From contig NZ_OY776411.1 of assembly GCF_963675585.1 (NCBI RefSeq), positions 873,001-937,000 of the forward strand: a DNA stretch of 64,000 bases. The letters are read 5' to 3'. Made by a program: the position numbers and the translations under genes. Below, one piece after another: positions 43,206 through 61,625 of the stretch. The notes under the pieces were generated by a model. The model did no database searches. It worked only from the letters and a program-made list of their open reading frames with translations, and was not told where the DNA came from. Position 1 is the first letter of the stretch. Each line of letters begins with the position of its first letter. The stretch is from an uncultured Draconibacterium sp. Lineage in GTDB: Bacteria > Bacteroidota > Bacteroidia > Bacteroidales > Prolixibacteraceae.

Positions 43206-45062
43206 TTAAAACTTCAGAATAACTGATTCCAATCCTTTCAAATCCAGGGCAACAGAAGCACTTCCATTTTCCACATTCAACACAAAATTATCAGTGCCCG
43301 ACAATTGATCGGTGAGCTTGTAATTCCCATTTTCCAGTTTTAAAAGCCCAACTGTTTCTTCATCGAGTTTTAGTTGAAAAGCATGCTCGGTTTCCTTAAA
43401 ATTGCTAACTACAATTAAACGTTCCTGCTTGCTAAACCGCACAAACGAAAAAAGCTTGTTGGTATAGTTTTCAGTATGTTCGCGATTGAACAAATGAATG
43501 TCTTTGTATTCGCCCATCAGGGCCGGCGAGTTAGCCGAGAAATTTAGCAAGCTTTTATAAAATGAGTTTAATTCTTTTTCTTCAGGGGTAGACTGACCAC
43601 AATCGAAAGCGCCATTGTTCATCCATCTTTGATGGGCAGGTACTCCCCAATAATCAAAAATTGATGTACGCGATTCGGTTCCAAATCCGGCATTTCCGTC
43701 TCCGGGCTCGCCCACATTTTGTCCAAAATAAAGCATTGTTGGCGATGTACTCATACAAGCGGAAACAACCATGGCCGGCTTGCCTTTTTGTGCATTTCCT
43801 GCAAATTCTTTACTGGCGATTCTTTGCTCATCGTGGTTCTCAAGAAAATGCAGCATGTGGTGTTCAATGTCCTCCAATCCATTATAAATGGCAGGTAAAT
43901 TATCTGTACTTCCGTGCCCTTGCATAATGTGTTTTAAAGTATCGTAAAGTTCAACCTTGTCGTATAAAAAATCCATTTTACCTTTGTAAATGTAATCGCG
44001 GTAAAGTTTAGGATTATAGACTTCGGCCAGTAAAAAGGCCTCCGGATTTTTCCTTTTTATGGTGGAATTCATGTAACTCCAGAATTCAACGGGCACCATT
44101 TCGGCCATATCATAACGAAAACCATCCACTCCTTTCCCCATCCAGTAAAGCGCAATGTTCAGGAACTTCGTCCACGAATCGGGTACTTTTTTGTTTTGCC
44201 AAAACTCATTGTGGGCCCGGTAATCTTTTTTATCGTATCCTTCCGGTAATCTATCAAAATCGTAGCTTCCGTCGGGTTTTACACCGTAATTAACTTTTAC
44301 TGTTTCGTACCAGTCGTAAAATCCGGGTTGTGCCTCGCGCGATCCGTTGCCGGTCCATTTTGCCGGATTTTCAGAAAACTTTCCATCTGCCAAAGGATGA
44401 TCTTCTCCACCAAGAGGTTTGTAACCATTCCTACTTTCCGGCACTTGAAAAGCTTTCCCCGGAATGTAATAGAAATTGTTGTCGCGTTTGTATTCCACCG
44501 ATGTATCGTCATTTTCGCCAAAATCGGCCATCCCTTTGGGTTTTGAAATGGAATGATAGTTACGGGCCACATGATTGGGAACAATATCAATAATTACTTT
44601 CATTCCATGTTTGTGAGTACGTGCAATTAAGGCTTCAAATTCTTCCAAACGGTTTTCAGGATTTACGGCTAAATCGGGATTTACATTGTAATAATCTTTT
44701 ACAGCATAAGGCGAACCGGCTCTTCCTTTTACAACATCCGGATCGTCATTTGAAATGCCATACGCAGTGTAGTCGTTTATTACACAATGATGAGGTACTC
44801 CTGTATACCAGATATGTGTGATTCCCATCGCCTTTAACTCTTCCAATGCCCTGTCGGTAAAATCGTTGAATTTACCAACGCCGTTCTCCTCAACGGTTCC
44901 CCAGGGTTTGTTTGTTGAATTTGTATTTCCGAATAAGCGTGTGAATACCTGGTAAACCACAAATTTTCCCTGTTGTTTTTCGGGCTGAACAGGTTCCTTT
45001 TTGGGTGGAGCTTGGCATGCAAAAACAGTTAAGGCAAGAAGTAGAAGTAGTAGTTTTTTCAT
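43206..45062 (-). CDS. GH13 alpha-amylase-family lipoprotein
   Basis: A 618-residue glycoside hydrolase, lipidated (leader MKKLLLLLLALTVFAC with lipobox VFAC), so probably on the inner face or surface of the outer membrane. GH13 regions: I DIVPNHV, II GFRYDMAEM with the nucleophile Asp, III FLLAEVYN with the acid/base Glu and IV FLENHDEQR with the stabilising Asp. A beta-sandwich C-domain follows (from about residue 540). It hydrolyses alpha-1,4-glucan or maltodextrin. Last gene of the minus-strand half of the starch locus, separated from the next GH13 gene by a palindromic repeat element. Confidence 0.94.
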   Translation of the reverse strand: MKKLLLLLLALTVFACQAPPKKEPVQPEKQQGKFVVYQVFTRLFGNTNSTNKPWGTVEENGVGKFNDFTDRALEELKAMGITHIWYTGVPHHCVINDYTAYGISNDDPDVVKGRAGSPYAVKDYYNVNPDLAVNPENRLEEFEALIARTHKHGMKVIIDIVPNHVARNYHSISKPKGMADFGENDDTSVEYKRDNNFYYIPGKAFQVPESRNGYKPLGGEDHPLADGKFSENPAKWTGNGSREAQPGFYDWYETVKVNYGVKPDGSYDFDRLPEGYDKKDYRAHNEFWQNKKVPDSWTKFLNIALYWMGKGVDGFRYDMAEMVPVEFWSYMNSTIKRKNPEAFLLAEVYNPKLYRDYIYKGKMDFLYDKVELYDTLKHIMQGHGSTDNLPAIYNGLEDIEHHMLHFLENHDEQRIASKEFAGNAQKGKPAMVVSACMSTSPTMLYFGQNVGEPGDGNAGFGTESRTSIFDYWGVPAHQRWMNNGAFDCGQSTPEEKELNSFYKSLLNFSANSPALMGEYKDIHLFNREHTENYTNKLFSFVRFSKQERLIVVSNFKETEHAFQLKLDEETVGLLKLENGNYKLTDQLSGTDNFVLNVENGSASVALDLKGLESVILKF

Positions 45063-45177: not shown

Positions 45178-47016
45178 TTACCTCTCTAACTGAACTATTA
45201 TCGCTGATTTTGCAGGAATTGTAACTTCAGAAATATCGGACAATTCGGTGCCGGAAATAATTTCCTTTCCGCTTTTATAGCCGGAAATCACTTCTTTAAA
45301 ACGATCTGTTTTAAGCGTTTTAGCCTCGGTATTTTTATTTAGAACAACCATTACCGCAGCATCGTCGAGATAACGGAAATATGTATATGTACCTTCATCG
45401 GGAACAAAGTGCATAAGTTTTCCCTTGTGAATTGTAGTTGCTGTTTTTCGCCAGTTCTGAATTTTTGCAACATAGTTTTGCATGTCCTTTGCTTCGTTAC
45501 TCAATCCTTCACCGGTAAAGGCATTTACTTTGTCGCCTTCCCATCCACCCGGAAAATCAGCACGAATATCGCCATGTTCGCTTCCATCGTGGCGCATCAA
45601 AATTTCAGTTCCATAGTAAATCTGAGGAATTCCGCGTGTGGTTAAAAAGAATGCCACTCCCATTTTAAGCAAGTCTACATCTTCGCCAACCTGTACAAAA
45701 AACCGCGACATATCGTGATTGTCAGGGAAAATAGTCAGCTTATTTGCATCGGGATATTGAAAGTCGTTTGAAATGGCTTCGTAAATCTGAATCAATCCAT
45801 TGTCCCAATTCTCTTCATTACTTAATCCCTGTGCAACTGCACTTTGCAAAGGAAAATCCATCATACTTGGAGCATAATTTTTGTAGCCATCCGAATTGTA
45901 TTTTCCTTTTTGCCAATACGAAACAATAGCCGGATTCATACTCCATTCTTCGCCAACAACATTAAAATTCGGATATTCTTCCAATAATTCTTTGGTCCAA
46001 ACCGACATCATATTTTTATCGGGGTATGGCCAGGTATCCTGACGAATTCCCTCTAAACCAACGTATTCAATCCACCAAATACTATTCTGAATCAGGTATT
46101 TTGCCATAAACGGATTCCGCTGATTCATATCGGGCATCGATGGCACAAACCAACCATTCACCATGGCATCAATATCCGATTTCGATGCGTGGGGATCCTG
46201 ATTTACAGTGCGGCGGTGATTTGTAATTTTGTAATCCGGATAATTGTTAATCCAGTCTTTCATCGGCATATCATTCATCCACCAGTGTTCCGAGCCACAG
46301 TGATTAAAAATGAGGTCCATAATCAGCTTCATTCCGCGTTTATCCAGTTCTTTTTTCAGTTCCACATATTCCGAATTACCTCCGTAACGGGCATCTGCTT
46401 TGTAAAAATCGGTACAAGCATATCCGTGGTACGAAGCTTCGCTCATGTCATTTTCGAGAACAGGATTTAACCACACAGCAGTGTAACCGAGGTTTTGAAG
46501 ATAATCCAAGGAATTGATTATTCCTCTTAAATCTCCTCCGTGACGACCGTAATTGTAACTGCGATCGAGTCCTTCCTTCATGCCTTCAAGCTCATCGTTA
46601 CCGGTATCGCCATTAACAAAACGGTCGGGTGTAATTAAACAAATTACATCGGAAGAATTAAATCCAATACGTTCGGCCGAATTCGCGGAACGCTGCAATA
46701 ACTCGTAAGCATATGTTGCAACTTCCTTGTTTTTTACTTTAAAATGAATGTCGAATTTGCCGGGTTTAACGGCCTCATCCAATTTTAAATCGACAAAAAG
46801 ATAATTTGGATTTTCAACTTTGGTAACCGAAACCACATCTACTCCGGGGTAGCTAATGGAAACATCGGCCAAAGAAATATCGGTACCATGAACCATTAAT
46901 TGTAAGTCGGGCGATTTCATTCCGGCCCACCAGTTTGGCGGCTCAACGCGCTCGAGTTCCTGCGCCGCAATATTTAGTGTCAGCAGTATAATAAAAAGAG
47001 TTAATAGCTTCTTCAT
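45178..47016 (-). CDS. GH13 neopullulanase/cyclomaltodextrinase (SusA-like)
   Basis: A 612-residue periplasmic enzyme with a signal peptide (ending LTLNIAAQ) and an N-terminal cyclomaltodextrinase-type beta domain (residues 20-110; VEPPNWWAGMKSPDLQLMVHG). The catalytic barrel has DLIFNHCG, the nucleophile in GIRQDTWPY, the acid/base in VVGEEW and FPDNHDMSRF. C-terminal beta domain to the end. Cleaves imported maltodextrins, cyclodextrins or pullulan to glucose and maltose, the SusA role. In line with the GH65 and MFS genes (34 bases between genes). Confidence 0.94.
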   Translation of the reverse strand: MKKLLTLFIILLTLNIAAQELERVEPPNWWAGMKSPDLQLMVHGTDISLADVSISYPGVDVVSVTKVENPNYLFVDLKLDEAVKPGKFDIHFKVKNKEVATYAYELLQRSANSAERIGFNSSDVICLITPDRFVNGDTGNDELEGMKEGLDRSYNYGRHGGDLRGIINSLDYLQNLGYTAVWLNPVLENDMSEASYHGYACTDFYKADARYGGNSEYVELKKELDKRGMKLIMDLIFNHCGSEHWWMNDMPMKDWINNYPDYKITNHRRTVNQDPHASKSDIDAMVNGWFVPSMPDMNQRNPFMAKYLIQNSIWWIEYVGLEGIRQDTWPYPDKNMMSVWTKELLEEYPNFNVVGEEWSMNPAIVSYWQKGKYNSDGYKNYAPSMMDFPLQSAVAQGLSNEENWDNGLIQIYEAISNDFQYPDANKLTIFPDNHDMSRFFVQVGEDVDLLKMGVAFFLTTRGIPQIYYGTEILMRHDGSEHGDIRADFPGGWEGDKVNAFTGEGLSNEAKDMQNYVAKIQNWRKTATTIHKGKLMHFVPDEGTYTYFRYLDDAAVMVVLNKNTEAKTLKTDRFKEVISGYKSGKEIISGTELSDISEVTIPAKSAIIVQLER

Positions 47017-47050: not shown

Positions 47051-49360
47051 TTACCTTTTAAATTCCATTTTTGTATTTCCGGCAATCTCATGCTCAGTGC
47101 CCCAAATCGTTACGGGTACTTTTACTCCGGAATGATTAATTATACAGAAAACACCACTCTCCTTTTTAACTTCCAATTGCGCACCACCAAAATTGATTTT
47201 GAATGCATACGAAAGCCACGATTTCGGAATAAAAGGATTAAAAGTCAACTTCCCGTTTGTAACACGCATTCCACCAAAAGCCATTACAAACGACATCCAG
47301 GTTCCGCCCATGCTTGTAATGTGCAAACCATCTTCGGTATCGTTGTTGTAATCATCTAAATCGAGTCGGGCTGTGCGTAAATACATTTCATACGATTTTT
47401 CCTGGTAGCCAATTTTAGCTGCCAAAATAGAATGTACACATGGCGAAAGCGAAGATTCGTGCACCGTTAGTGGCTCATAAAAATCGAAGTGACGTTTTAT
47501 GTCTTCAATCGAAAAGTTCTCCTGAAACAGGTATAAACTTTGCAAAGTGTCGGCTTGTTTTATGTACGGCGAACGTAAAATCCGGTCCCACGACCATTTT
47601 TGATTGATGGGTAAATCCTGTTCAGAAAGTTCTGCAACCGGAGTAAGGTCTTTGTCTAAAAATCCATCTTGCTGAAGATATACACCCAGCTCCTCATCGC
47701 GGGGAAAATACATTTTATCAATTATTTCCTGCCAGTGCGCGGTTTCTGTTAATTCATTAAACTTCCATTTTTGAACCAGTTCTTCGTAAAAAAACGGGTA
47801 TTCAATTTTAAGGTATTCAATTACCTCGAGCGTATATTTTAAAGTCCACACCGCCATATAACTGGTGTGGAAATTATTGTTTACATTGTTTTCGTACTCA
47901 TTGGGCCCGGTAACACCCAGCATAACATACTTTTGTTTTGCCACCGACCAGTTTACACGCTGGCTCCAAAAACGGCTAATGCCCAACAATACTTCAAAAC
48001 CCGTCGGTGCCAGGTATTCTTTGTCGCCGGTATAATTTACATAGTCATAAATGGCATACGCAATTGCCCCGTTCCGGTGAACTTCCTCAAACGTAATCTC
48101 CCATTCGTTGTGGCATTCTTCTCCGTTGATAGTAACCATGGGATAAAGTGCTGCACCATTTTTAAAACCCAGTTTTTCTGCGTTTTCAATGGCTTTTTGC
48201 AGGTGTTTGTGGCGGTAAACCAATAAGTTTTTTGCTACCGTTTGAGGAGCTGTGCTTAGGTAAAAAGGTAAACAATAGGCTTCTGTGTCCCAATAGGTTA
48301 CTCCACCGTATTTTTCGCCGGTAAAACCTTTGGGGCCAATGTTTAATCTTTCGTCTTCGCCTGTGTAGGTTTGGTTTAACTGAAAAATATTAAAACGTAT
48401 TCCTTGCTGGGCGGCCACATCGCCCTCAATTTTTATGTCACTGGTTTCCCACTTGGACAACCACAGGTTTTTATGACTTTCAAAAAGTGCGTCGAATCCT
48501 GCTTCAGCAGCAATATCAATAACTTCTTTCGCCTTTTCAACCAGTTCTTCTTTTTCGAAATAAAGGGAAGAAACAGTCGCCGAGAATTTCTCAACAACTA
48601 TTTCATCACCTACATTTACTCCCACATCCTGCGATGCCTCAACATATTTTTCTTTATTTCTGTTCGATATTTTAGTATCTACTTTTTCTCCATGTTTTAA
48701 GAGCTGAAACCACATGCCGGTACACACCTGAAACTCTGTTTTTAATGTCTCGACTGTAATGTATCCTTCGGCTCCACCAACAGCACGCGACACTTCAGTC
48801 CAAAATTTTTCGTCGTAGTTTGAGTCTTCATTCACCACATCGGCATCTAAAAACGGAATTACCTGAATGGTACCTTCAAAATTTAGTGCTTTTACGGTAT
48901 ACCGGATGGCTCCAATTTCGGTGGCTGCAATGCTTACAAACCGGTGCGAACTTACTTCAACCTGGTTGCCATTTTTTAATTCGGCAACAAATCTTCGCGA
49001 TAAAAGTCCGTGTTGCATATCGAGTTCACGGGCAAACGACAAAACTTTTACCCTGGCCAAATCCAGCTCTTCACCATTAATTTTTATGCGTATTCCAATC
49101 CAGTTGGTGGAGTTAATTATTTTGGCGAAATACTCCGGATAACCGTTTTTCCACCAGCCTACGCGGGTTTTATCGGGATAATAAATTCCGGCTACGTACG
49201 TACCGTTTAAGGTTTCGCCGGAGTACCTCTCCTCAAAATTTGCGCGCTGCCCCATTTTCCCATTTCCGATGCTAAAAAGACTCTCGGAAATGCGATTTAG
49301 TTCAGGCTCAAATCCCTCCTCAACTATTTTCCACTCGTGATGAATTATATAATCCTTCAT
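47051..49360 (-). CDS. GH65 phosphorylase (maltose phosphorylase-like)
   Basis: A 769-residue cytoplasmic enzyme without a signal peptide. GH65 layout: N-terminal beta-sandwich (1-270), linker helices, an (alpha/alpha)6 barrel (320-690) and a small C-terminal beta domain. The acid catalyst lies in HNEWEITFEEVHRNG (glutamates at about 419 and 421), and HESSLSPCVHSILAAKIG and TEDGLHITSMGGTW form the phosphate site region. Splits an alpha-glucoside, most likely maltose, with phosphate to beta-glucose 1-phosphate and glucose. The beta-phosphoglucomutase (pgmB) that usually accompanies it is absent from the window. Operon with the MFS gene (20 bases) and the SusA-like gene. Confidence 0.93.
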   Translation of the reverse strand: MKDYIIHHEWKIVEEGFEPELNRISESLFSIGNGKMGQRANFEERYSGETLNGTYVAGIYYPDKTRVGWWKNGYPEYFAKIINSTNWIGIRIKINGEELDLARVKVLSFARELDMQHGLLSRRFVAELKNGNQVEVSSHRFVSIAATEIGAIRYTVKALNFEGTIQVIPFLDADVVNEDSNYDEKFWTEVSRAVGGAEGYITVETLKTEFQVCTGMWFQLLKHGEKVDTKISNRNKEKYVEASQDVGVNVGDEIVVEKFSATVSSLYFEKEELVEKAKEVIDIAAEAGFDALFESHKNLWLSKWETSDIKIEGDVAAQQGIRFNIFQLNQTYTGEDERLNIGPKGFTGEKYGGVTYWDTEAYCLPFYLSTAPQTVAKNLLVYRHKHLQKAIENAEKLGFKNGAALYPMVTINGEECHNEWEITFEEVHRNGAIAYAIYDYVNYTGDKEYLAPTGFEVLLGISRFWSQRVNWSVAKQKYVMLGVTGPNEYENNVNNNFHTSYMAVWTLKYTLEVIEYLKIEYPFFYEELVQKWKFNELTETAHWQEIIDKMYFPRDEELGVYLQQDGFLDKDLTPVAELSEQDLPINQKWSWDRILRSPYIKQADTLQSLYLFQENFSIEDIKRHFDFYEPLTVHESSLSPCVHSILAAKIGYQEKSYEMYLRTARLDLDDYNNDTEDGLHITSMGGTWMSFVMAFGGMRVTNGKLTFNPFIPKSWLSYAFKINFGGAQLEVKKESGVFCIINHSGVKVPVTIWGTEHEIAGNTKMEFKR

Positions 49361-49380: not shown

Positions 49381-50895
49381 TTATTTATTTGTTGTTGCAA
49401 CATCTTTAACAAACAACACCATTACTGCTGCAATAACCATTGATACTCCTCCCAAAACAAGTGCTAAAATTGACTCACCTCCGAATAAATTCTGCACCAC
49501 AAATCCAAGAATTGTAGCGGCAAGAATTTGGGGTATAACAATAAAGAAATTGAAAATGCCCATGTAAATTCCCATTTTATGAGAAGGCAATGACCCGGTA
49601 AGAATGGCATAAGGCATAGAAAGAATACTCGCCCATGCAATACCAACACCGATCATCGATACAATTAACCATTTGGGATCGTTAATGAGATAAACTGATG
49701 CTAAACCAATTCCACCCAAAACCAAACAGATAAAGTGAGTGGTTTTTCGATTGGTGTATTTCGCTAAAACCGGCAATGCAAATGCCATTAAAGCGGCAAC
49801 ACCGTTGTAAATTCCGAAAAGTACGGTTACCCAGTCGGCACCATCGTTGTACAACTGAGATAGCGGATCGGATGTACCGTACACATGACTTGTAATACCC
49901 GAAACTGCGTAAATCCACAAGGCGAACAAACCAATCCAGGTAAAAAACTGAACAATTGCCAGTTGTTTCATTGTAGCCGGCATACGAAGCAAGTCGGAAA
50001 AAATTTCAACAAGGGCATTTTCCTTTTTGCCTTCCACTTTTGTAGCATAAGCCAAAAGCATCAGCACTAAAAACAGCAAAAGAATTCCTCCCAGAATGTA
50101 TAGATTTTTATCCAACTGCAGTTGATACGTTAATCCAACAATAACAAGCCCGATGATTCCGAAAACACCTCCTACTTTTAGGAAACGGTTTCTGTTAACC
50201 GGTTCTTCATTGTAACCAAGCGAGGCCAACGTGGTTTTCTTTTCCTCCTGTACAAACTCACTCATTTTTTCGGGAGGATACTCCTTTGTGGTGAATATTG
50301 TCCATAAAATAGCCATAAAAAACACGGCAGCACCAATGTAAAACGACCATTTTACCGATGGAGGAATCATTCCTTCGGGGGCCGTATTTGGTATGTTCAA
50401 CCAATTGGTCATTACCCAGGGAAGAATTGAACCAACCACTGCTCCTGTTCCAATAAAGAAACTTTGCATGGCAAATCCACGGGTGCGTTGTTCGTTTGGC
50501 AGCATATCGCCAACAAAAGCCCGAAAAGGTTCCATCGAAATATTTATGGAAGCATCCATAATCCACAAGGTTCCGGCAGCTACCCACAAAGCCGGAGAAT
50601 TTGGCATTAACAAAAGTGCCAGCGATGCAAAAATAGCTCCGAACAAAAAGTAGGGTCTTCTTCGTCCCAGTCGGTTCCAGGTTTTATCACTCATGTGCCC
50701 GATAATTGGCTGAATAATAAGACCGGTTACCGGAGCAGCAATCCATAAAATGGGTATGTCTTCCACATTGGCACCAAGCGTTTCAAAAATTCGGCTGACA
50801 TTTGCATTTTGTAATGCAAATCCAAACTGAATCCCCAAAAATCCAAAGCTCATATTCCAAATCTGCCAAAAACTCAGGGTAGGTTTTTTACTCAT
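49381..50895 (-). CDS. MFS sugar transporter (maltose transporter-like)
   Basis: A 504-residue inner-membrane transporter with twelve hydrophobic segments. It belongs to the GPH/SLC45-like MFS group: FGIQFGFALQNANVSRIFETLGA, IQPIIGHMSDKTWNRLGRRRPYFLFGA (the loop 2-3 motif), and a second-half IPQILAATILGFVVQNLF. This group brings maltose and glucose into the cytoplasm in Bacteroidota starch loci. It is the first gene of the minus-strand operon, with a clear promoter at 51003-51034 and a LacI-type palindrome further upstream. Confidence 0.92.
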   Translation of the reverse strand: MSKKPTLSFWQIWNMSFGFLGIQFGFALQNANVSRIFETLGANVEDIPILWIAAPVTGLIIQPIIGHMSDKTWNRLGRRRPYFLFGAIFASLALLLMPNSPALWVAAGTLWIMDASINISMEPFRAFVGDMLPNEQRTRGFAMQSFFIGTGAVVGSILPWVMTNWLNIPNTAPEGMIPPSVKWSFYIGAAVFFMAILWTIFTTKEYPPEKMSEFVQEEKKTTLASLGYNEEPVNRNRFLKVGGVFGIIGLVIVGLTYQLQLDKNLYILGGILLLFLVLMLLAYATKVEGKKENALVEIFSDLLRMPATMKQLAIVQFFTWIGLFALWIYAVSGITSHVYGTSDPLSQLYNDGADWVTVLFGIYNGVAALMAFALPVLAKYTNRKTTHFICLVLGGIGLASVYLINDPKWLIVSMIGVGIAWASILSMPYAILTGSLPSHKMGIYMGIFNFFIVIPQILAATILGFVVQNLFGGESILALVLGGVSMVIAAVMVLFVKDVATTNK

Positions 50896-51185: not shown

Positions 51186-52199
51186 TTAAAGAGACGATCC
51201 GCGAACAACCAGATTTGCATTTAACACTTTTGTTTCAGCCGGGTATTCATCGTCTTCCGAAGTAATTCTTTTCAATAACATTTCGGTTGCAATGGTTCCC
51301 ATTTCGTATCCGTGCTGGTCTACTGATGTTAAAGTAGGATCGGTAATACCCGAAAATCTACCATCGGAGAAACCGACAACTGCAATATCATCGGGTATTT
51401 TTAAGCCTCGTTTTTGAATGGTTTGCATGGCTCCAATTGCGGTAAGATCGTTTGTGGCAAACAGGCCATCAAACTTTTTCTTTGTATTAAGCAATTTCAT
51501 AATTGCCATTCGTGCCTTTTCAAAATTATCGGCTTCAATAATCAAGTCGTTATCCACGGCAAGCCCGGCTTCGTTTAAAGCTTTTAAATAACCCTCTTTT
51601 CGCTGTTTCCCAATCAAAAGTTTTTGTGGACCGGCAAAATGCGCAATGTGTTGTCTGCCACTGTCGATTAAATGGCGGGTGGCCCGGTATGAAGCATCAA
51701 AATCGTCGATAATTACCTGATCTGCATTCAGGCCGGGAACAACACGATCGTAAAAAACCAGCGGAATTTTATTGTCGCGCAAATTATATAAGTGGCTGTA
51801 ATCTTCTGTTTCTTTTGTAATCGACACCAAAATACCATCTACCCGGCTGGCCAGCAAGGTTTTTGCGTTTGCTACTTCGCGTTCATATTTTTCATTACTC
51901 TGACAAATAATAACGTTAAAGCCGGCGTCGTATGCCACATCTTCAATTCCACTAATAACCGAAGAGAAAAAATAATGTACTATTTCAGGAATAATAATTC
52001 CAATGGTATTGCTGCGTCGTTGTTTTAAGCTTAAGGCAACAGCATTTGGCTGATAATTTAGCTTTTTGGCCAATTCGTTTACAGCACGTTTGGTTTCAGT
52101 GCTTATGTCAGGATGATCCTTCAGTGCTCTTGAAACTGTGGAGGCAGATATTTTAAGTTCTCTTGCAAGATCTTTTATTGTAACTAATCCGCTTTTCAT
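51186..52199 (-). CDS. LacI-family regulator of the starch locus
   Basis: From the start MKSGLVTIKDLARELKIS the protein has 337 residues: helix-turn-helix and hinge helix (TIKDLARELKISASTVSRAL, RRAVNELAKKLNYQPNAVALSLK in two parts) then a periplasmic-binding-like sensor domain (IGIIIPEIVHYFFSSVISGIE, NLVVRGSS at the end). The open frame extends 21 codons upstream but a good promoter overlaps that stretch, so the shorter start is right. It lies between the two halves of the starch locus and probably binds the CAAACGTTTG palindromes at 51093 and 52363, controlling both with maltose or a related sugar as effector. LacI regulators with this central role are known in other Bacteroidota maltose loci; here it replaces SusR. 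Confidence 0.93.
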   Translation of the reverse strand: MKSGLVTIKDLARELKISASTVSRALKDHPDISTETKRAVNELAKKLNYQPNAVALSLKQRRSNTIGIIIPEIVHYFFSSVISGIEDVAYDAGFNVIICQSNEKYEREVANAKTLLASRVDGILVSITKETEDYSHLYNLRDNKIPLVFYDRVVPGLNADQVIIDDFDASYRATRHLIDSGRQHIAHFAGPQKLLIGKQRKEGYLKALNEAGLAVDNDLIIEADNFEKARMAIMKLLNTKKKFDGLFATNDLTAIGAMQTIQKRGLKIPDDIAVVGFSDGRFSGITDPTLTSVDQHGYEMGTIATEMLLKRITSEDDEYPAETKVLNANLVVRGSSL

Positions 52200-52259
52200 G
52201 CTATTAAATAGAGTAAAATTACCCGAAGAGTTTTTAAAGTTGTTATTAATGGCCTTGAA

Positions 52260-52288
52260 CAAAAATACACATTTAAGTCAATTTTCAA
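52260..52288 (-). promoter_or_regulatory. promoter of the lacI-type gene
   Basis: On the minus strand TTG at 52286-52288, an 18-base spacer and TATTTTTG (-7) at 52260-52267. The predicted transcript start (about 52253) is downstream of the ATG at 52262, which supports the start at 52199. Confidence 0.5.
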
Positions 52289-52548: not shown

Positions 52549-55512
52549 ATGAGGATTATTCGTAAAAACCTTAAAGTTGTCTTGTTTTTGGTTGCTCTAC
52601 TCAGCTATACTTTGAGTTATGCGCAGGTGAAAACAATCACAGGTAAAGTTTCCGATGCCGGTAATGGCGAGCCTTTACCTGGTGTTACCATTGTAGTTAA
52701 AGGAACTACGCAGGGTACAATTACCAATTTTGATGGAGATTACACCATTGATGTAGAAGAAGCACAGACGCTGATCTTCTCGTTTATTGGTTACACTCCG
52801 CAAGAAGTAGTAGTTGGAAGTAGCAGTACAATTAACTTACAGTTGGCCCAGTCGATGGAAAATCTGGATGAAGTGGTTGTAATTGGTTACGGACAAGTTA
52901 AAAAAGAAGATGCAACAGGTTCTGTTTCAGCGGTAAGTTCTGCCGACTTTAACCAGGGAGCAATTACTTCTCCACAAGATCTTGTTAGCGGAAAAATTGC
53001 AGGGGTACAAATTACCAACGGTGGTGGTGCTCCGGGTGCCGGTTCAACTATCCGAATCAGGGGTGGTTCTTCGCTTTCGGCAAGTAACGATCCTTTAATT
53101 GTAATCGACGGTGTTCCAATGGACAGTGAAGGTGTTTCGGGAATGAGAAATCCGTTAAATACAATTCACCCAAGTGATATTGAAACGTTTACCGTATTAA
53201 AAGATGCTTCGGCAACTGCTATTTACGGTTCGCGCGCATCAAACGGTGTTGTACTTATTACCACTAAAAAAGGAAGAAAAGGTGCCGGGCTAAAACTTAG
53301 CTACAACGGTTTTTCTTCGTACAGCACTCCTTCCGGACAAATTGATGTTTTATCGGCCGATCAGTTCAGAGAAACTGTAATTGCTGAAAAAGGTTCAGAA
53401 TCAACTGCAGCAAGCCTTCTTGGTTCAACATCAACCGACTGGCAGGATGTAATTTTCGAACCTGCAATCAGTCATGACCACAACGTAAGTCTTACCGGAA
53501 ATATCAAAGACATGCCATTCAGAGCATCAGTTGGATATTCAGATCAAAATGGTATCCTGTTGAATTCGAGCATGGAACGCTGGACCGGATCTGTTGGTTT
53601 CAATCCTAGTTTTCTGGAAGATCACCTAAAATTAAATGTAAACCTGAAAGGGATGGTTATCGACAATAATTTCTCGAATCAGGGTGCAATTGGTGCTGCG
53701 GTAAGTTTCGATCCTACACAGTCTACTTACAGTGCAAGCGACAAATTCGGTGGCTTTTTTACATGGACTCAGCCCAACGGCGATCCAAATACGCTGGCCC
53801 CAACCAACCCAATGGCTCTTATAAAAATGCACGACGACCAGTCGACTGTTAAACGAGTAGTTGGAAATGCACAACTTGATTATCAGTTTCATTTTCTTCC
53901 TGAATTAAAAGCCACTCTTAATGTTGGTTTGGAATATTCAGACAGTGAAGGAACGACAATTGACGATAACGATGCCCCCTGGACCTTTGGTAACGGTGGC
54001 GGATATTACGGAGAATACACGCAGGAAAAGAAAAATGAATTGCTGGATTTCTACCTGACATACAACAAAGAGCTTGAATCGATAGAAAGTAATCTTACCG
54101 TAATGGGTGGTTATTCGTGGCAACATTTCTGGAGAGAAAACTACTCATTCTCAAGAAGCGGTATAACCAACGAAACCATTAATCCTGAAAACTGGGATCC
54201 AACTGAATATTATCTGGTTTCATTCTTTGGCCGTGCAAATTATACTTACAAAGACAAATACTTGTTGACTTTAACCATGCGTCAGGACGGAACATCACGT
54301 TTCTCGCCTGACAGTCGCTGGGGTTTATTCCCATCAGCAGCTTTTGCATGGCGAATCAGCGAAGAGGATTTCTTCCAGAGTCAATCGGTTCTTTCAAACC
54401 TTAAACTTCGTTTGGGATACGGTATTACCGGTCAGCAGAATATTGGTAGCGGCGATTACCCTTATCTGGCTCGTTATACATATAGTTTAGATAATGCGCA
54501 GTACCAGTTTGGTGACCAATACTATCAAACCATTCGTCCTGAAGGTTACGACTCAGAAATTAAATGGGAAGAGACAACAACAATGAACGTTGGTTTGGAC
54601 TATGGCTTTTTAAACGATCGTATTACAGGTACAGTTGACGTGTACAAACGCGTTACCAACGACTTGTTAAACTTTATTCCGGTTCCTGCAGGTACCAACC
54701 TTACCAACATGTTGTTGACCAACGTAGGCGATCTTGAAAACAGAGGTTTCGAATTCTCTGTTTTAGGCCGTATTATTTCGAAAGAAGACCTTTCGTGGGA
54801 AGTTGGATTTAACGCCACTTACAATAAAAATGAAATTACAAAACTTACAGCAACCGACGATCCTGACTACCTTGGCGTAGAAACCGGAGGAATTTCGGGT
54901 GCAGTTGGTAATAACATTCAGATCCACTCGGTAGGTTATCCTGCAAATTCATTCTTTGTTTACGAACAGGTTTACGATGAAGTAGGAAAACCAATTCAGG
55001 GATTGTATGTGGACAGAAACGGAGACGGCCAAATTACCGGTGACGACAGGTACCGCTATAAAAAAGCTGCACCCGACTGGTTTATGGGCTTCGATTCGAA
55101 AGTAAACTGGAAAAACTGGGACTTCGGATTTGCCGGAAGAATTAACCTGGGCAATTACGTGTACAACAACGTTTGGTCATCAAACGGTTCATTAAACAAC
55201 CTATACTGGTCGTCGAATTACTTGTTAAATGTAAACCAGAACGCTTTGGAAACCAATTTCCAAAATCCACAGTATTTCACCGACTACTACGTGAAAAACG
55301 CTTCGTTCCTGCGTTTAGATAATATTACACTGGGACACAGCTTTAAAAATCTGAACAATAACAAAATGAGTATTCGCTTGTACGGTACTGTTCAGAACGT
55401 ATTTGTTGTTACAGACTATAAAGGTCTTGATCCTGAGGTTAGTAATGGTATTGACAATAACATTTACCCACGCCCAAGAACTTTCATGATGGGCTTAAGC
55501 ATTGATTATTAA
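52549..55512 (+). CDS. susC: SusC/RagA-family TonB-dependent outer membrane receptor
   Basis: Outer-membrane channel that imports maltodextrins using TonB energy. The 987 residues comprise a signal peptide (ending LSYAQ), a carboxypeptidase-regulatory-like domain (ITGKVSDAGNGEPLPGVTIVVKG, residues 28-105), the TonB box region ENLDEVVVIGYG, the plug (SPQDLVSGKIAGVQI, TIRIRGGSSLSASNDPLIVIDGVPMD split, LKDASATAIYGSRASNGVVLITTKKG split) and a barrel ending RPRTFMMGLSIDY. Pairs with the SusD protein 18 bases downstream. Controlled by the LacI-type regulator encoded on the other strand. Confidence 0.97.
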   Translation: MRIIRKNLKVVLFLVALLSYTLSYAQVKTITGKVSDAGNGEPLPGVTIVVKGTTQGTITNFDGDYTIDVEEAQTLIFSFIGYTPQEVVVGSSSTINLQLAQSMENLDEVVVIGYGQVKKEDATGSVSAVSSADFNQGAITSPQDLVSGKIAGVQITNGGGAPGAGSTIRIRGGSSLSASNDPLIVIDGVPMDSEGVSGMRNPLNTIHPSDIETFTVLKDASATAIYGSRASNGVVLITTKKGRKGAGLKLSYNGFSSYSTPSGQIDVLSADQFRETVIAEKGSESTAASLLGSTSTDWQDVIFEPAISHDHNVSLTGNIKDMPFRASVGYSDQNGILLNSSMERWTGSVGFNPSFLEDHLKLNVNLKGMVIDNNFSNQGAIGAAVSFDPTQSTYSASDKFGGFFTWTQPNGDPNTLAPTNPMALIKMHDDQSTVKRVVGNAQLDYQFHFLPELKATLNVGLEYSDSEGTTIDDNDAPWTFGNGGGYYGEYTQEKKNELLDFYLTYNKELESIESNLTVMGGYSWQHFWRENYSFSRSGITNETINPENWDPTEYYLVSFFGRANYTYKDKYLLTLTMRQDGTSRFSPDSRWGLFPSAAFAWRISEEDFFQSQSVLSNLKLRLGYGITGQQNIGSGDYPYLARYTYSLDNAQYQFGDQYYQTIRPEGYDSEIKWEETTTMNVGLDYGFLNDRITGTVDVYKRVTNDLLNFIPVPAGTNLTNMLLTNVGDLENRGFEFSVLGRIISKEDLSWEVGFNATYNKNEITKLTATDDPDYLGVETGGISGAVGNNIQIHSVGYPANSFFVYEQVYDEVGKPIQGLYVDRNGDGQITGDDRYRYKKAAPDWFMGFDSKVNWKNWDFGFAGRINLGNYVYNNVWSSNGSLNNLYWSSNYLLNVNQNALETNFQNPQYFTDYYVKNASFLRLDNITLGHSFKNLNNNKMSIRLYGTVQNVFVVTDYKGLDPEVSNGIDNNIYPRPRTFMMGLSIDY

Positions 55513-55530: not shown

Positions 55531-57741
55531 ATGATTATAAAGAAATTTAAATATATAAGCATCATAGTACTTGCAACCCTGTTTGCAATTACATCGTGTG
55601 TTAACGATTTGGACACTGTTCCAATTGATGAGGATGTAGTAACTTCGGAAACCGTTTACGAGGATGCGAACAACTACATTAATGTACTGGCAAAACTTTA
55701 TGCAGGTTTAGCAGTAAGTGGCCAGCAGGGTCCTAGCGGAATGAACGACCTTAGTGGTTTGGATGAAGGTTTCGGACAATACCTGCGTGCTTTGTGGTAT
55801 GCACAACAACTAACAACCGACGAAGCGGTTATTGGCTGGAACGACGCTACCTTAAGAGACTTTCACGACATGGACTGGTCTTCAACCGATGGTTTTATCA
55901 CCAATCTGTACTATCGTATTTTCTACCAGGTTTCGCTTTGCAACGAGTTTATTCGCGAAACTACACCTGAGAAACTGGATGGCAGAAATATTTCGGGTTC
56001 TATCAGAACAGACATTGAATTGTACCGCTCAGAAGCAAGATTCTTACGTGCTTTGAGTTACTACCATGCTGTAGATTTATTTGGTAGTGTACCATTTGTA
56101 ACCGAAGAAGACAATGTTGGAGCTTTCTTTCCGGAGCAAATTTCAAGAGCTGACCTTTTTGCTTATGTTGAATCGGAATTATTGGCTGTTGAAAACGAAT
56201 TATCGGCACCACGAAGTGTTGGTTATGGAAGAGCTGACCAGGCTGCAGTTTGGATGCTTTTGGCAAAATTATATTTGAATGCTGAAGTATATACCGGACA
56301 AGCAAAATACAGCGAAGCTGCTACTTATTCGGAAAAAGTAATTAATGCAGGTTACTCACTGGAATCGGATTATACACACTTATTTTTGGCCGATAATAAC
56401 ACTTCAAACGAGATTATTTTCCCAATCATTCAGGATGGAGCAAACATTCGTACCTGGGGTGGTACTACTTTCCTAGTACACGCGCCTGTAGGTGGATCAA
56501 TGTCGCCGGCAGAATTTGGAATCGACGGCGGTTGGAGTGGTTTAAGAACGACTAAACAGTTTGTTGGTAAATTCCTCGATTTGGAAACTTTGGCACCAAA
56601 ACTAAAAAGTGCAAAAGTTGATTATCCTGTTATTTATGTTCCCGGTGGATATCAGTCTGGTTCGGGTTACAGCGAAGGCGACTGGGCTCCGGATGTTGCA
56701 CCAACACTGGGTTCTGTAAATTCAGACAGCAACTACGAGGGTTATATTTATTTTGCCGATGCAGCTGAATTTAAATTTACAGCTGGTCCGAACTGGGATT
56801 TAAACTGGGGCGACGACGGTGGCGACGGATCATTGGAACCCAATGGTGCAAACCTTTCGGTTGCTGAAGGAGGATACTACAAGCTAAATGTAAATACTGC
56901 CGACCTTACTTATTCTATCGCTAAAACCGATTGGGGAATTATTGGTTCTGCAACTGCAAATGGCTGGGATTCTGACCAGAACATGGAATTTGATGCTGAA
57001 ACAAAAACATGGATTGCTGAACTGGACTTGTCGGCAGGTGAAATTAAATTCCGTGCCAACGACGATTGGGCAATCAATTACGGCGACGACGGAGCAGATG
57101 GCGTACTTGGAGCAGGTGCTGCAAACATTGCCATTGCCGAAGCAGGTAGCTATAAAATTACCATGAAACTGGAATCTCCTGATTATACGTACACCGTTGA
57201 GAAATTTAGTTCTGATAGCCGTGCCTTGTTCTACACCGAAGGACAAAATCTTGAAATTGAAGATCTTTTTGAATTTACTGAAGGATATGCAATTACCAAG
57301 TGGCGTAACATTACTTCAACAGGAGAAACAGGCGTTGACCTGACCCATCCCGACACAGACTTCCCAATGTTCCGTTTAGCCGATGCATACTTAATGTACG
57401 CCGAAGCTGTTGTGAGAGGTGGAGGAGGTAGCATGAGCAATGCAGTTTCGTACGTTAACGAGTTAAGAGAAAGAGCATATGGCGACGACTTTGGAAACAT
57501 GACTGAAGCAGACCTTACTCTTGACTTCATTCTTGACGAACGCGCCCGCGAACTTTACTGGGAAGGACATCGTAGAAGTGACTTGATACGTTTTGGCAAA
57601 TTTACCAGCTCAAATTACGTTTGGGCTTGGAAAGGAGCCGTTAAAGAAGGTGTAGGCGTTGACGACAAATACAAGTTGTTCCCGCTTCCTGCTTCGGATG
57701 TTGGTGCCAATCCAAATCTGACTCAGACTACCGGATATTAA
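55531..57741 (+). CDS. susD: SusD-family starch-binding lipoprotein with an inserted pair of SusE-like modules
   Basis: Surface lipoprotein (lipobox AITSC) that caps SusC and binds starch. It has 736 residues where SusD proteins have about 500-560. The SusD core is split: residues 25-362 (helical TPR-like part with SEARFLRALSYYHAVDLFG, AAVWMLLAKLYLNAEVY) and 560-736 (DSRALFYTEGQ, FRLADAYLMYAEAV, ILDERARELYWEGHRRSDLIRFGKF, LFPLPASDVGANPNL). Residues about 366-559 are an insert that matches the two C-terminal modules of the SusE protein downstream (PNWDLNWGD, TDWGIIG, GWDSDQNM, FRANDDWAINYGDDG). The insert sits where normal SusD has a substrate-facing loop, so it probably adds two starch-binding sites. 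In frame, no sign of damage. Confidence 0.93.
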   Translation: MIIKKFKYISIIVLATLFAITSCVNDLDTVPIDEDVVTSETVYEDANNYINVLAKLYAGLAVSGQQGPSGMNDLSGLDEGFGQYLRALWYAQQLTTDEAVIGWNDATLRDFHDMDWSSTDGFITNLYYRIFYQVSLCNEFIRETTPEKLDGRNISGSIRTDIELYRSEARFLRALSYYHAVDLFGSVPFVTEEDNVGAFFPEQISRADLFAYVESELLAVENELSAPRSVGYGRADQAAVWMLLAKLYLNAEVYTGQAKYSEAATYSEKVINAGYSLESDYTHLFLADNNTSNEIIFPIIQDGANIRTWGGTTFLVHAPVGGSMSPAEFGIDGGWSGLRTTKQFVGKFLDLETLAPKLKSAKVDYPVIYVPGGYQSGSGYSEGDWAPDVAPTLGSVNSDSNYEGYIYFADAAEFKFTAGPNWDLNWGDDGGDGSLEPNGANLSVAEGGYYKLNVNTADLTYSIAKTDWGIIGSATANGWDSDQNMEFDAETKTWIAELDLSAGEIKFRANDDWAINYGDDGADGVLGAGAANIAIAEAGSYKITMKLESPDYTYTVEKFSSDSRALFYTEGQNLEIEDLFEFTEGYAITKWRNITSTGETGVDLTHPDTDFPMFRLADAYLMYAEAVVRGGGGSMSNAVSYVNELRERAYGDDFGNMTEADLTLDFILDERARELYWEGHRRSDLIRFGKFTSSNYVWAWKGAVKEGVGVDDKYKLFPLPASDVGANPNLTQTTGY
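56626..57207 (+). other. SusE-type tandem starch-binding insert within susD
   Basis: The part of susD coding for residues about 366-559. It aligns with 58222-58809 of susE over both modules. At DNA level 30 bases are identical (57043-57072 with 58645-58674) and a 20-base run is identical (56791-56810 with 58393-58412), while flanking codons differ. This points to duplication within the locus, with later divergence or gene conversion. Confidence 0.8.
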
Positions 57742-57762
57742 TCAAAAGCAAAATTATTTAAG

Positions 57763-58812
57763 ATGAAAAAGATAAATTATATATTAAGTACGATCATCAT
57801 TCTGCTTGTTTTCGCCTCTTGCGAAAAAGAAGTATTTGAGCCTGTGGTTGGTGTTTACACTCCTCCTGCAATGGAAGATGTTTCAGGAACGTATGTGTTT
57901 TCTGAAGACATTGCTGACGATGTATTTAAAACCTTCAGCTGGACCGATGCAGATTTTGGTTTTCAATCGGCAACTACCTACAAAGTACAACTTGACTTTG
58001 CCGGTAACGATTTTGCCACTGCTGTTGATTTAATTACAACTACCGAAAAATCGGCAAGTATTACTGTGGGTGCCCTCAATCAGAAATTGTTGGCCATGGG
58101 AGCAAAAACCAATGTTCCTTCCGATTTCGAAGTACGTGTAACTGCCGAAGTAAGCGACTATGTTCAAACACTGGCATCAAACGCTCCGGTAATGAACATT
58201 CTTCCTTACAAAGTGGTGATTATTTACCCATCGTTGTACTTGCCCGGAAACTACCAGGCAGCCAGCGGATACGAATCAGACTGGAGCCCGGACAAGGCTC
58301 AGCAGGTTTATTCGATTAAACAAAACGAAAAATACGAAGGTTATGTGAATATGGTTGGCGACGGTATAATGTTCAAATTTACCGACGAACCAAACTGGGA
58401 TTTAAACTGGGGTGACACTGACGCAGACGGAACATTGGATGTAAACGGAACTGACATTTCTATTCCAACCGCCGGTTACTACCGTATTAAAGCCGATATT
58501 AATGCTTTAACCTACTCGTTCGAAAAAACAGATTGGGGATTGATTGGTGATGCAACTCCTGATGGCTGGGATGCTGACCAAAACATGACTTACAGTATGG
58601 ATACCAAAACTTGGACGGTTACTGTTGATTTGGTTGCCGGTACCATTAAATTCCGTGCCAACGACGATTGGGCATTAAATTACGGTGATACCGGATTTGA
58701 TGGAACTCTTGACGAAGGTGGAGATAATATTCCGATTGATGAAGCTGGAAATTATACGATTGTTTTAAATCTTGAAGCACCTGGTTTTGCTTACGAGATT
58801 ATTAAAAATTAA
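57763..58812 (+). CDS. susE: SusE-family outer membrane starch-binding lipoprotein
   Basis: A 349-residue surface lipoprotein (lipobox VFASC). The N-terminal Ig-like SusE domain (residues 25-150; FSWTDADFGFQSATTYKVQLD) is followed by two starch-binding modules of about 95 residues: module 1 from LYLPGNYQAASG to LTYSFEKT, module 2 from DWGLIGDATPDGW to the end. Each has the WD-x-N-x-G-D and DGTLD loop pattern, with aromatic residues likely to stack on glucose rings. The modules match the insert in SusD. Follows susD by 21 bases; a strong terminator comes directly after. Confidence 0.92.
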   Translation: MKKINYILSTIIILLVFASCEKEVFEPVVGVYTPPAMEDVSGTYVFSEDIADDVFKTFSWTDADFGFQSATTYKVQLDFAGNDFATAVDLITTTEKSASITVGALNQKLLAMGAKTNVPSDFEVRVTAEVSDYVQTLASNAPVMNILPYKVVIIYPSLYLPGNYQAASGYESDWSPDKAQQVYSIKQNEKYEGYVNMVGDGIMFKFTDEPNWDLNWGDTDADGTLDVNGTDISIPTAGYYRIKADINALTYSFEKTDWGLIGDATPDGWDADQNMTYSMDTKTWTVTVDLVAGTIKFRANDDWALNYGDTGFDGTLDEGGDNIPIDEAGNYTIVLNLEAPGFAYEIIKN

Positions 58813-58829: not shown

Positions 58830-58868
58830 AAAGGGTTGCCGGATTACATTTGGCAACCCTTTCTTTTT
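58830..58868 (+). terminator. terminator between susE and the secreted GH13 gene
   Basis: Eleven-base-pair stem AAAGGGTTGCC / GGCAACCCTTT, an 11-base loop and CTTTTT, 18 bases past the susE stop. It ends 12 bases before the ATG of the next gene, so it can lower or separate expression of that gene within the operon. No own promoter for the GH13 gene can fit between them. Confidence 0.82.
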
Positions 58869-58880
58869 AAAACCTTTACT

Positions 58881-61625
58881 ATGCTCACACGATTTTCTTT
58901 TTTAGTATTGATGATTGCCGCAAGCTTTATAAGCCGTGCGCAAATTACAACCGTCCCTGAATTTCCGGTAGCTTCTGAAGAAATTACCATAACGTTTAAT
59001 TCGGCCGAAGAAAACAGGCTGGGCTATTTTACAGGAGATCTGTACGCACATACCGGTTTAATTACCGAAGAGAGCACTTCGGATTCCGACTGGCAATACG
59101 TAATTGAAGGATGGGGAAACAATACCACACAACCCAAACTAACCAATAAGGGAAATGGAATTTACGAGTTGGTTGTAAGTCCGGATATTGCAACATTTTA
59201 TTCCGTTACTTCAGGAGAAAAAGTACTTAAAATAGCCTTGGTTTTTAGGTCGGCCGATGCAAGCCAGCAAACCGATAATTTATACGTTGACATTTACCAA
59301 GGAGGATTAGTGGTTGACATCACCGAGCCGGCCGGAAGTTCAATACTCAAACTAAATACTGCAACAACCTTAACCGCTCGTTCTTCGGTTTCGGCAGCAT
59401 TAAAATTAAGCATTAACGAAACAATTCTGACAGAAAATACCGGAATCGAAATTACCACAAGCCACACGTTTAGCGAGTCGGGAACCTATTGGTTAATTGC
59501 CGAAGCTACCGCAAACGGAGAAACCGTTTTTGATTCGATGGAGATTTTTGTACGCAACGAAGTAAGCATCGAACCAAAACCGGCGAATTACAAAAAAGGT
59601 ATTAACTACACCGACGATACTTCGGCTGCACTTGTATTATGGGCTCCGTTAAAAGAATTTGTATACGTAATTGGAGACTTTAACAACTGGGAAATTTCGG
59701 ACGACTACCTGATGAAAAAAGACGGCGATTACTTTTGGCTCGATCTTTCAGGACTAGAAAAAGGGAAAGAATATATTTTTCAGTATTACATTGACGGTAG
59801 CATTAAAATTGCAGATCCTTACACCGAAAAAATTGTGGATCCGTGGAACGACCAGTACATTCCCGAAGAGGTGTATCCCGGATTAATCGCCTATCCAACA
59901 GGTAAAACAGAAGGTATTGCTTCGGTACTTCAAACAGCCCAGGAAGAATACAGTTGGCAGGTAAGCGATTTTCAGAAACCGGACAAAAACAAACTGGCCA
60001 TTTACGAATTGCTGGTGCGCGATTTTACTACTGCCCAGTCGTACCAGGGCGTAATTGATGAACTGGATTACCTGGAAGATTTGCGCATAAATGTTTTGGA
60101 ATTAATGCCGGTGAACGAGTTCGAAGGCAACAACAGCTGGGGATATAATCCGGCTTTCTATTTTGCTCCCGACAAATATTACGGCCCAAAAAACAAACTA
60201 AAAGAATTAATTGACGAATGCCACAAAAGAGGCATTGCAGTTGTCATCGACATGGTACTAAATCACAGTTACGGTCAAAGTCCGTTTGTGCAAATGTACA
60301 TGGACAACTGGACCATTTTGCCTGAAAACCCATGGTACAATGTCTCGTCGCCAAACCCGGTTTATTCTTGGGGATATGATTTTAACCATGAAGCCGATGT
60401 TGTAAAGGAATTGGTTGACAGTGTAAACAGTTTCTGGATTAACGAATATAAAATTGATGGTTTCCGTTTCGACTTTACCAAAGGATTTACTCAAACTCCC
60501 GGCGATGGCTGGGCTTACGATGCTTCAAGAATTGCTATTCTGGAACGAATGGCAAACGAAATTTGGAAACGCAACTCTGAAACGTTTGTAATACTTGAAC
60601 ACCTGGCACACAACGACGAAGAAACCGAGCTGGCCAATTCAGGAATAATGCTTTGGGGAAACATGCATGGAAGCTACCAGAATGCCGCTGCCGGAAACAC
60701 TGGCGAATCGGATTTAAGTTGGGCCCTGTACGACGAAAGAGGATGGAACGAGCCTAATTTGGTTTCTTATCCCGAAAGCCACGATGAAGAACGAATTATG
60801 TACACCATAAAGAACAGTGGCCTTTCAAACGATGATTACAACATTAGAAACCAAACAACTGCTCTGCAACGAATTGAATTAAATTCACTGTTTCACTTGT
60901 TGTTACCGGGCCCGAAAATGATTTGGCAATTTGGTGAACGCGGATACGACTTGCCCATAAACCGTTGTGAAGACGGTTCGATAAATAATGACTGCCGTAC
61001 TGCGCCAAAACCACCTTACTGGCAATATTTGAATAATCCCGACCGGGTTGAGTTGTTTCATGTTATGGCTAAATTAAATGAGCTTAAACAGCAATACGAC
61101 GTATTTACTCCGGCCAATTTCACTTACGATTTAAGCAGTGCCGGAAAATGGTTTATTGCAAGCAACGAAAGCAATCACGCTATTGCTCTGGGTAATTTCG
61201 ATATTGTTGAACACGATGTTTCTGTTACCTTCCCTGAAACAGGTAAATATTACGAGTTCTTTACACAAGATTCCATTGAAATTGGATCGACAAACCAGGC
61301 AATTACATTGCAAGCCGGTGAATATAAATTGTACTCTACACAAAAGTTTGACGAACCGGATGTAACTACTGATTTGGAAGCTGTTTCGGCTAAGAAAAAT
61401 ACGGTTTCTATGTACCCTAATCCAGCCCATTCTATTCTGAATTTCTCTTCTGATGTAAACATTGATCGGATTGAAATTTATTCCTTAACTGGAAAACTGC
61501 TGCTTGTAGACAACGAGCCGGCCAATCAAAAACAAGTAAATATCGACTCTTTTGTATCCGGAATTTATTTGGTACGAACCATTCAGGGAAAAAATGTAGC
61601 AACACAAAAAGTTGTTGTGAAATAA
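58881..61625 (+). CDS. T9SS-secreted GH13 alpha-amylase with CBM48-like domain
   Basis: Extracellular starch-degrading enzyme, 914 residues from the ATG at 58881 (MLTRFSFLVLMIAASFISRAQ signal peptide); the open frame upstream runs through the terminator. Order: an N-terminal beta domain (about 20-120), an Ig-like domain (130-230), a CBM48-type early-set domain (245-335; FVYVIGDFNNWEIS), the GH13 barrel (365-760) with DMVLNHS, nucleophile in GFRFDFTKGF, acid/base in VILEHLAH and PESHDEERI, a C-domain, and a T9SS type A sorting domain (about 840-914; SMYPNPA, then YSLTGKLL and GIYLVRT). In B. thetaiotaomicron the matching role is held by the lipoprotein SusG; here type IX secretion is used. Confidence 0.94.
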   Translation: MLTRFSFLVLMIAASFISRAQITTVPEFPVASEEITITFNSAEENRLGYFTGDLYAHTGLITEESTSDSDWQYVIEGWGNNTTQPKLTNKGNGIYELVVSPDIATFYSVTSGEKVLKIALVFRSADASQQTDNLYVDIYQGGLVVDITEPAGSSILKLNTATTLTARSSVSAALKLSINETILTENTGIEITTSHTFSESGTYWLIAEATANGETVFDSMEIFVRNEVSIEPKPANYKKGINYTDDTSAALVLWAPLKEFVYVIGDFNNWEISDDYLMKKDGDYFWLDLSGLEKGKEYIFQYYIDGSIKIADPYTEKIVDPWNDQYIPEEVYPGLIAYPTGKTEGIASVLQTAQEEYSWQVSDFQKPDKNKLAIYELLVRDFTTAQSYQGVIDELDYLEDLRINVLELMPVNEFEGNNSWGYNPAFYFAPDKYYGPKNKLKELIDECHKRGIAVVIDMVLNHSYGQSPFVQMYMDNWTILPENPWYNVSSPNPVYSWGYDFNHEADVVKELVDSVNSFWINEYKIDGFRFDFTKGFTQTPGDGWAYDASRIAILERMANEIWKRNSETFVILEHLAHNDEETELANSGIMLWGNMHGSYQNAAAGNTGESDLSWALYDERGWNEPNLVSYPESHDEERIMYTIKNSGLSNDDYNIRNQTTALQRIELNSLFHLLLPGPKMIWQFGERGYDLPINRCEDGSINNDCRTAPKPPYWQYLNNPDRVELFHVMAKLNELKQQYDVFTPANFTYDLSSAGKWFIASNESNHAIALGNFDIVEHDVSVTFPETGKYYEFFTQDSIEIGSTNQAITLQAGEYKLYSTQKFDEPDVTTDLEAVSAKKNTVSMYPNPAHSILNFSSDVNIDRIEIYSLTGKLLLVDNEPANQKQVNIDSFVSGIYLVRTIQGKNVATQKVVVK

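Follow-up and report, generated by a model that had tools for sequence, protein, structure and literature searches.

The window, a stretch of 64,000 nucleotides from an uncultured Draconibacterium sp. (contig NZ_OY776411.1, positions 873,001 to 937,000), contains a susD gene whose product carries an in-frame insert of two SusE-type modules. The gene most likely belongs to an ordinary SusC-SusD alpha-glucan importer in which the SusD lid carries its own SusE-type binding arm, supplementing SusE. The substrate would be of the starch, glycogen or maltodextrin class, and a two-module block of the adjoining SusE's kind would have been inserted long ago into one loop of the lid. Computation establishes the architecture of the protein, how its two parts are predicted to fold, how well they are conserved, the selection acting on them and their history. 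The gene and its parts are as follows.

55531..57741, + strand: SusD with inserted modules, 736 amino acids (aa)
55600..56580, + strand: SusD core, N-terminal part, residues 24-350, with the glucan-site equivalents D78, R86, W103, D105, W309 and W335 (alignment to Bacteroides thetaiotaomicron (B. theta) SusD)
56578..56619, + strand: likely a flexible linker on the N-terminal side of the insert, residues 350-363 (predicted local distance difference test score, pLDDT, <50 at 356-362)
56620..56931, + strand: module 1, residues 364-467, with conserved W385 and W422 (hidden Markov model (HMM) boundaries, predicted fold, conservation)
56929..57210, + strand: module 2, residues 467-560, with conserved W479 and W513, PF16411 (HMM boundaries, Pfam, predicted fold, conservation)
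57214..57738, + strand: SusD core, C-terminal part, residues 562-736 (PF07980 at 579-736)

The open reading frame (ORF) at 55531-57741 (+ strand) encodes 736 aa and has 0 internal stops. The span 55531-58812 of the preliminary description covers susD plus the SusE gene (57763-58812). Cys23, which follows a hydrophobic leader, is probably the residue that bears the lipid anchor. In BLASTP, SusD residues 338-558 align to residues 124-348 of the adjoining SusE with 109/226 identities (48%) and an E value of 3e-69. The HMMs built here place the modules of SusD at residues 364-467 and 467-560, and those of SusE at 155-257 and 257-348. Pfam assigns SusD-like_3 (PF14322) to residues 103-267 with 30.9 bits (cut-off 27) and SusD_RagB (PF07980) to residues 579-736 with 114.3 bits (cut-off 23.1). 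Between them, SusF_SusE (PF16411) matches two stretches with 59.4 bits (cut-off 27.5), the best at 470-571. The N-terminal domain of SusE, PF14292, is present in the adjoining SusE and is not found in SusD at E 0.01; the whole protein is therefore a SusD and not a SusE. BLASTP, Pfam and the HMM boundaries agree with the earlier proposal of two SusE-type modules in frame within an intact core, and the match positions given there (~366-559 in SusD, ~154-346 in SusE) are correct within a few residues.

The insertion point is a loop 13 residues past the conserved glucan-site tryptophan W335. Insert-less SusDs have 1-23 residues at this site (28 of 56 aligned rows), and, in the named loci, complete relatives that lack the insert are 514-546 aa long. 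SusDs with two or three modules are 719-859 aa long. Where the present protein has about 200 residues, B. theta SusD has a stretch of about 30 (chain 319-350) and no module.

In the predicted structure, the insert folds independently as a pair of beta-sandwiches similar to those of SusE and SusF, a point that the preliminary description proposed to check by structure prediction, and the remainder has the helical core fold of SusD. The closest folds to the predicted insert are the starch-binding modules of SusE, SusF and X25 type. Identity to the B. theta SusE and SusF modules in the structural alignment is 20-22%. This likeness comes from fold comparison and not from sequence searches of the PDB, in which a profile of 30 blocks matches two BT3088 SGBPdex sequences and, at E 0.44, a glucosaminidase chain, and matches no solved SusD. 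Fold comparison of the whole model is filled by SusD-type chains and is uninformative on the insert.

Across the 46 distinct two- or three-module SusDs collected, D78, R86, W103, D105 and W335 of the core are invariant (46/46), and position W309 is W in 34, Y in 11 and F in one. The glucan site of B. theta SusD is taken here to comprise D73, R81, W96, W98, N101, Y296 and W320. When the two proteins are aligned, D73, R81, W98 and W320 are identical (D78, R86, W103 and W335), N101 and Y296 correspond to D105 and W309, and W96 is not kept (I101). Each module has two conserved tryptophans, retained in 43 (W385), 41 (W422), 45 (W479) and 44 (W513) of the 46 proteins. They may correspond to the platform residues W192, W296 and W336 of SusE, being equated by motif and position and not by residue-level alignment. 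The fold and the conserved tryptophans suggest that both inserted modules bind alpha-glucan, in which case SusD would present the three starch sites of the preliminary description.

The ratio of nonsynonymous to synonymous substitution rates (dN/dS) between the window and eight relatives is 0.06-0.11 in the insert and 0.05-0.11 in the two core parts, with dS rough at a proportion of synonymous differences (pS) of 0.53-0.70. Purifying selection on the insert equals that on the SusD core.

A contig scan with this SusD returned 78 loci. Counts among these loci are not frequencies because the peptide patterns of the scan contain insert peptides. A complete two-module insert is present in 21 loci (L001-L021), one module in three (L023, L026 and L028) and no insert in 49. 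One locus is cut inside module 1 (L022) and one near the insertion site (L057). In the remaining three, the Aquimarina SusDs L056, L058 and L059, an 86-residue insert without similarity to the modules occupies the same site; a Pfam scan of L056 finds only SusD domains. The insert-less loci include the split susD-like gene of Lacinutrix neustonica (L078:6001-7499), which consists of two separate ORFs of 209 and 268 aa.

Within the window's family, at least 27 of 140 genomes, its own included, encode an inserted SusD (at least 28 proteins), and both modules are present in all 27 of the 28 proteins that were fetched. Genome G069 encodes two inserted SusDs, which share 86% and 59% identity with that of the window. 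In a phylum-wide sample, 3 of 395 genomes, again including the window's own, have a match with an E value of at most 1e-150. Draconibacterium sediminis, Maribellus sediminis and Marinifilum caeruleilacunae are the named strains that encode the insert. Two of the 27 fetched proteins of the family, from two genomes, have three tandem modules in the same loop, with module 2 repeated (L107:688-3255, 855 aa; L108:1474-4053, 859 aa). SusDs of more than 700 residues with the same insertion, which the preliminary description proposed to look for, are thus found in number, and those of G037 and G067 lie in single-contig assemblies.

In a tree of the SusD cores, from which the insert columns were removed, the 22 two-module SusDs group with the weakly placed, insert-less L024 (support 96/90). 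The three one-module SusDs branch elsewhere, beside Gelidibacter and Psychroserpens. A single clade of one- and two-module SusDs with L024 is rejected, with a log-likelihood loss of 197 and an approximately unbiased test value (p-AU) of 3e-44; L024 was joined to the constrained set after the tree had been seen, and the clade test alone is compatible with an early gain and many losses. A single clade of the two-module SusDs without L024 is not rejected (p 0.306). In the single-module tree, the one-module inserts fall outside a group (99/91) to which all copies of SusD module 2 belong. The simplest reading of these sequences is that one-module and two-module inserts would have been gained independently. 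One early gain followed by many losses may be the alternative, for which the data leave room because counts cannot tell gain from loss.

Also in the single-module tree, module 1 of SusD groups with module 1 of SusE, apart from module 2 (100/100), and the tandem block was therefore copied whole. In this tree of 94 columns, the SusD copies of module 1 do not form a single group (4 changes) and the SusE copies are nested among them, which speaks against a simple history. The longer block tree resolves this mixing. Of its 60 blocks, 41 from SusD and 18 from SusE lie on opposite sides of one branch (93/83; 92% of 200 bootstraps), and the 60th, on a 541-aa protein, is on the SusE side. This division therefore indicates one old copying event. 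At the DNA level, susD and susE share 290/427 bases (68%), and the copy is therefore old. Recent gene conversion between susD and susE is unsupported, given the opposite positions of their blocks. The block tree is unrooted; copying probably proceeded from SusE to SusD, because SusE and SusF are the usual setting of such modules.

A SusE-size ORF lies 3' of the inserted susD in 20 of the 21 named loci (L001-L021); two of these ORFs are truncated where their contig ends, and the contig of L004 stops before any such ORF. The modules were therefore added to what SusE provides and not moved, and the earlier wording of a SusD "merging SusD and SusE/F functions" overstates the case. Modules of the same type, full or partial, occur in 13 of the 20 ORFs, six have weak matches only (13-18 bits) and one has none. 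In the window's genome, PF16411 occurs only in this SusD and this SusE.

If the lid carries a binding arm, it would hold a tethered element with two extra glucan sites beside SusD's own. The arm, probably exposed and positioned over SusC, would catch long chains and retain them close to the mouth of SusC during the action of the amylase and the separate SusE, and would move with the lid during opening and closing. Several observations weigh against this account. How the insert sits relative to the core is uncertain because the pTM (predicted template modelling score) of the whole model is 0.73, and the insert sequence alone has no PDB match at E 10. L020 (L020:5980-8166) keeps the insert with all four module tryptophans gone, and three are missing in L112 and two in L113; the inserted modules of some lineages may be non-binding, with L020 as a natural candidate. 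SusE can help uptake without binding starch, judging by the title of Foley 2018 (cited in PMC10316084). Finally, an alignment of 49 SusCs (21 beside two-module SusDs, 22 beside insert-less SusDs and 6 others) contains no domain-sized SusC difference that accompanies the insert. Three columns differ in occupancy with insert status, and Y886 is near-fixed beside two-module SusDs and at 9% beside insert-less ones.

The tryptophan-free insert of L020 would suit a docking or spacing element that holds SusE, the amylase or SusC and binds no glucan, as would the finding that, in the utilisomes for levan and dextran, surface glycan-binding proteins sit on SusC (available part of PMC7618045). This explanation is unlikely, since the module tryptophans are conserved in 41-45 of the 46 proteins, the nearest folds are starch-binding modules and little SusC difference accompanies the insert. 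Very improbable is a neutral passenger of operon module shuffling, tolerated in a permissive loop. The loop does take one, two or three modules or the unrelated Aquimarina stretch, and the SusE module type does differ among close relatives, but the insert evolves at a dN/dS of about 0.1, the same as for the core, and is present in several families. An assembly or sequencing artefact that fused susD and susE, suggested by their adjacency and shared block, has a negligible probability. The 46 distinct inserted SusDs come from many assemblies, two of them single-contig, the block tree separates SusD from SusE blocks and the two copies in the window are only 68% identical as DNA. An ordinary SusD segment is ruled out by module fold comparison and conservation. 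Both grounds on which the preliminary description said it would fall, an assembly join and an ordinary segment, are thus removed by the fold, the relatives and the block tree.

A broader form of the binding-arm reading, slightly easier to doubt than to accept, is that one loop of SusD has repeatedly received starch-binding modules (0, 1, 2 or 3, with at least two independent gains), and that capture has moved from a separate protein to the lid, which would hand chains over by its motion.

Among the closest known systems to this SusD are B. theta SusD (3ck7-3ckc) and 3jys of B. vulgatus; F5_SusD-like is probably entry 7nek, a match of name to entry that is our own. In B. theta, the SusE and SusF modules (4fch, 4fem, 4fe9) are on separate proteins, whereas here they are inside SusD. 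Like this SusD, SusG has an inserted starch-binding module, CBM58 in its GH13 B domain (available parts of PMC7848910 and PMC11267923), but SusG is an enzyme and not a lid, and CBM58 is filed under a different family name. A loop of the GH10 xylanase Pm25 likewise contains inserted CBMs, and in homologues this loop accommodates between one and three (PMC7848910, same part), although Pm25 is an enzyme that acts on xylan. F5_SusD-like also has a sizeable additional region, comprising A328-I340 and G382-G444, and differs in a report of non-binding in the available part of PMC9599597. Inserted binding modules in Sus-type enzymes and large extra loops in a SusD are already known. In the levan utilisome, as described in the accessible text of PMC7618045, a separate binding protein with a mobile glycan-binding domain sits on the SusC rim and the lid opens and closes without clash, whereas here two such modules belong to the lid. 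The same text describes stable four-part utilisomes for levan and dextran and proposes a more dynamic assembly for starch. Among the papers listed by the literature searches, no title or abstract start names a SusD with SusE modules, with most subscription journals and all bioRxiv preprints outside the search.

The cooperation of surface glycan-binding proteins with SusCD transporters is debated. A SusD with covalent SusE-type modules is a natural test, since its capture modules cannot leave the lid, and the series of zero, one, two and three modules at one site offers natural variants for experiments.

The surrounding cluster contains three GH13 (glycoside hydrolase family 13) genes, GH65, an MFS (major facilitator superfamily) transporter, a LacI regulator, SusC, SusD and SusE, with SusC adjoining susD.

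43206..45062, - strand: GH13, alpha-amylase family
45178..47016, - strand: GH13, cyclomaltodextrinase type
47051..49360, - strand: GH65 enzyme
49381..50895, - strand: MFS sugar transporter
51186..52262, - strand: LacI-family regulator
52549..55512, + strand: SusC, TonB-dependent transporter partner (Pfam plug, barrel and carboxypeptidase-regulatory-like domains)
57763..58812, + strand: SusE, 349 aa, PF14292 N-terminal domain and the same two modules as the SusD insert
58836..61625, + strand: GH13 alpha-amylase-family enzyme with a CBM48 domain and a C-terminal Por secretion-system sorting domain, adjoining susE

Alpha-glucan loci of marine Flavobacteriia typically have GH13 and GH65 beside susCD, according to the available part of PMC11093988. 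The module type of SusE varies among close relatives whose SusDs are 81-87% identical. A SusD-like block is present in the SusE of the window (57763-58812), L083 and L086, and the SusEs L001:8239-9360, L018:8239-9360 and L002:8240-9361 have weak matches only to it. Near inserted susD genes, proteins of 588-603 aa contain four or five tandem modules of this type (L016:9395-11164, L017:11093-12859 and L020:964-2775).
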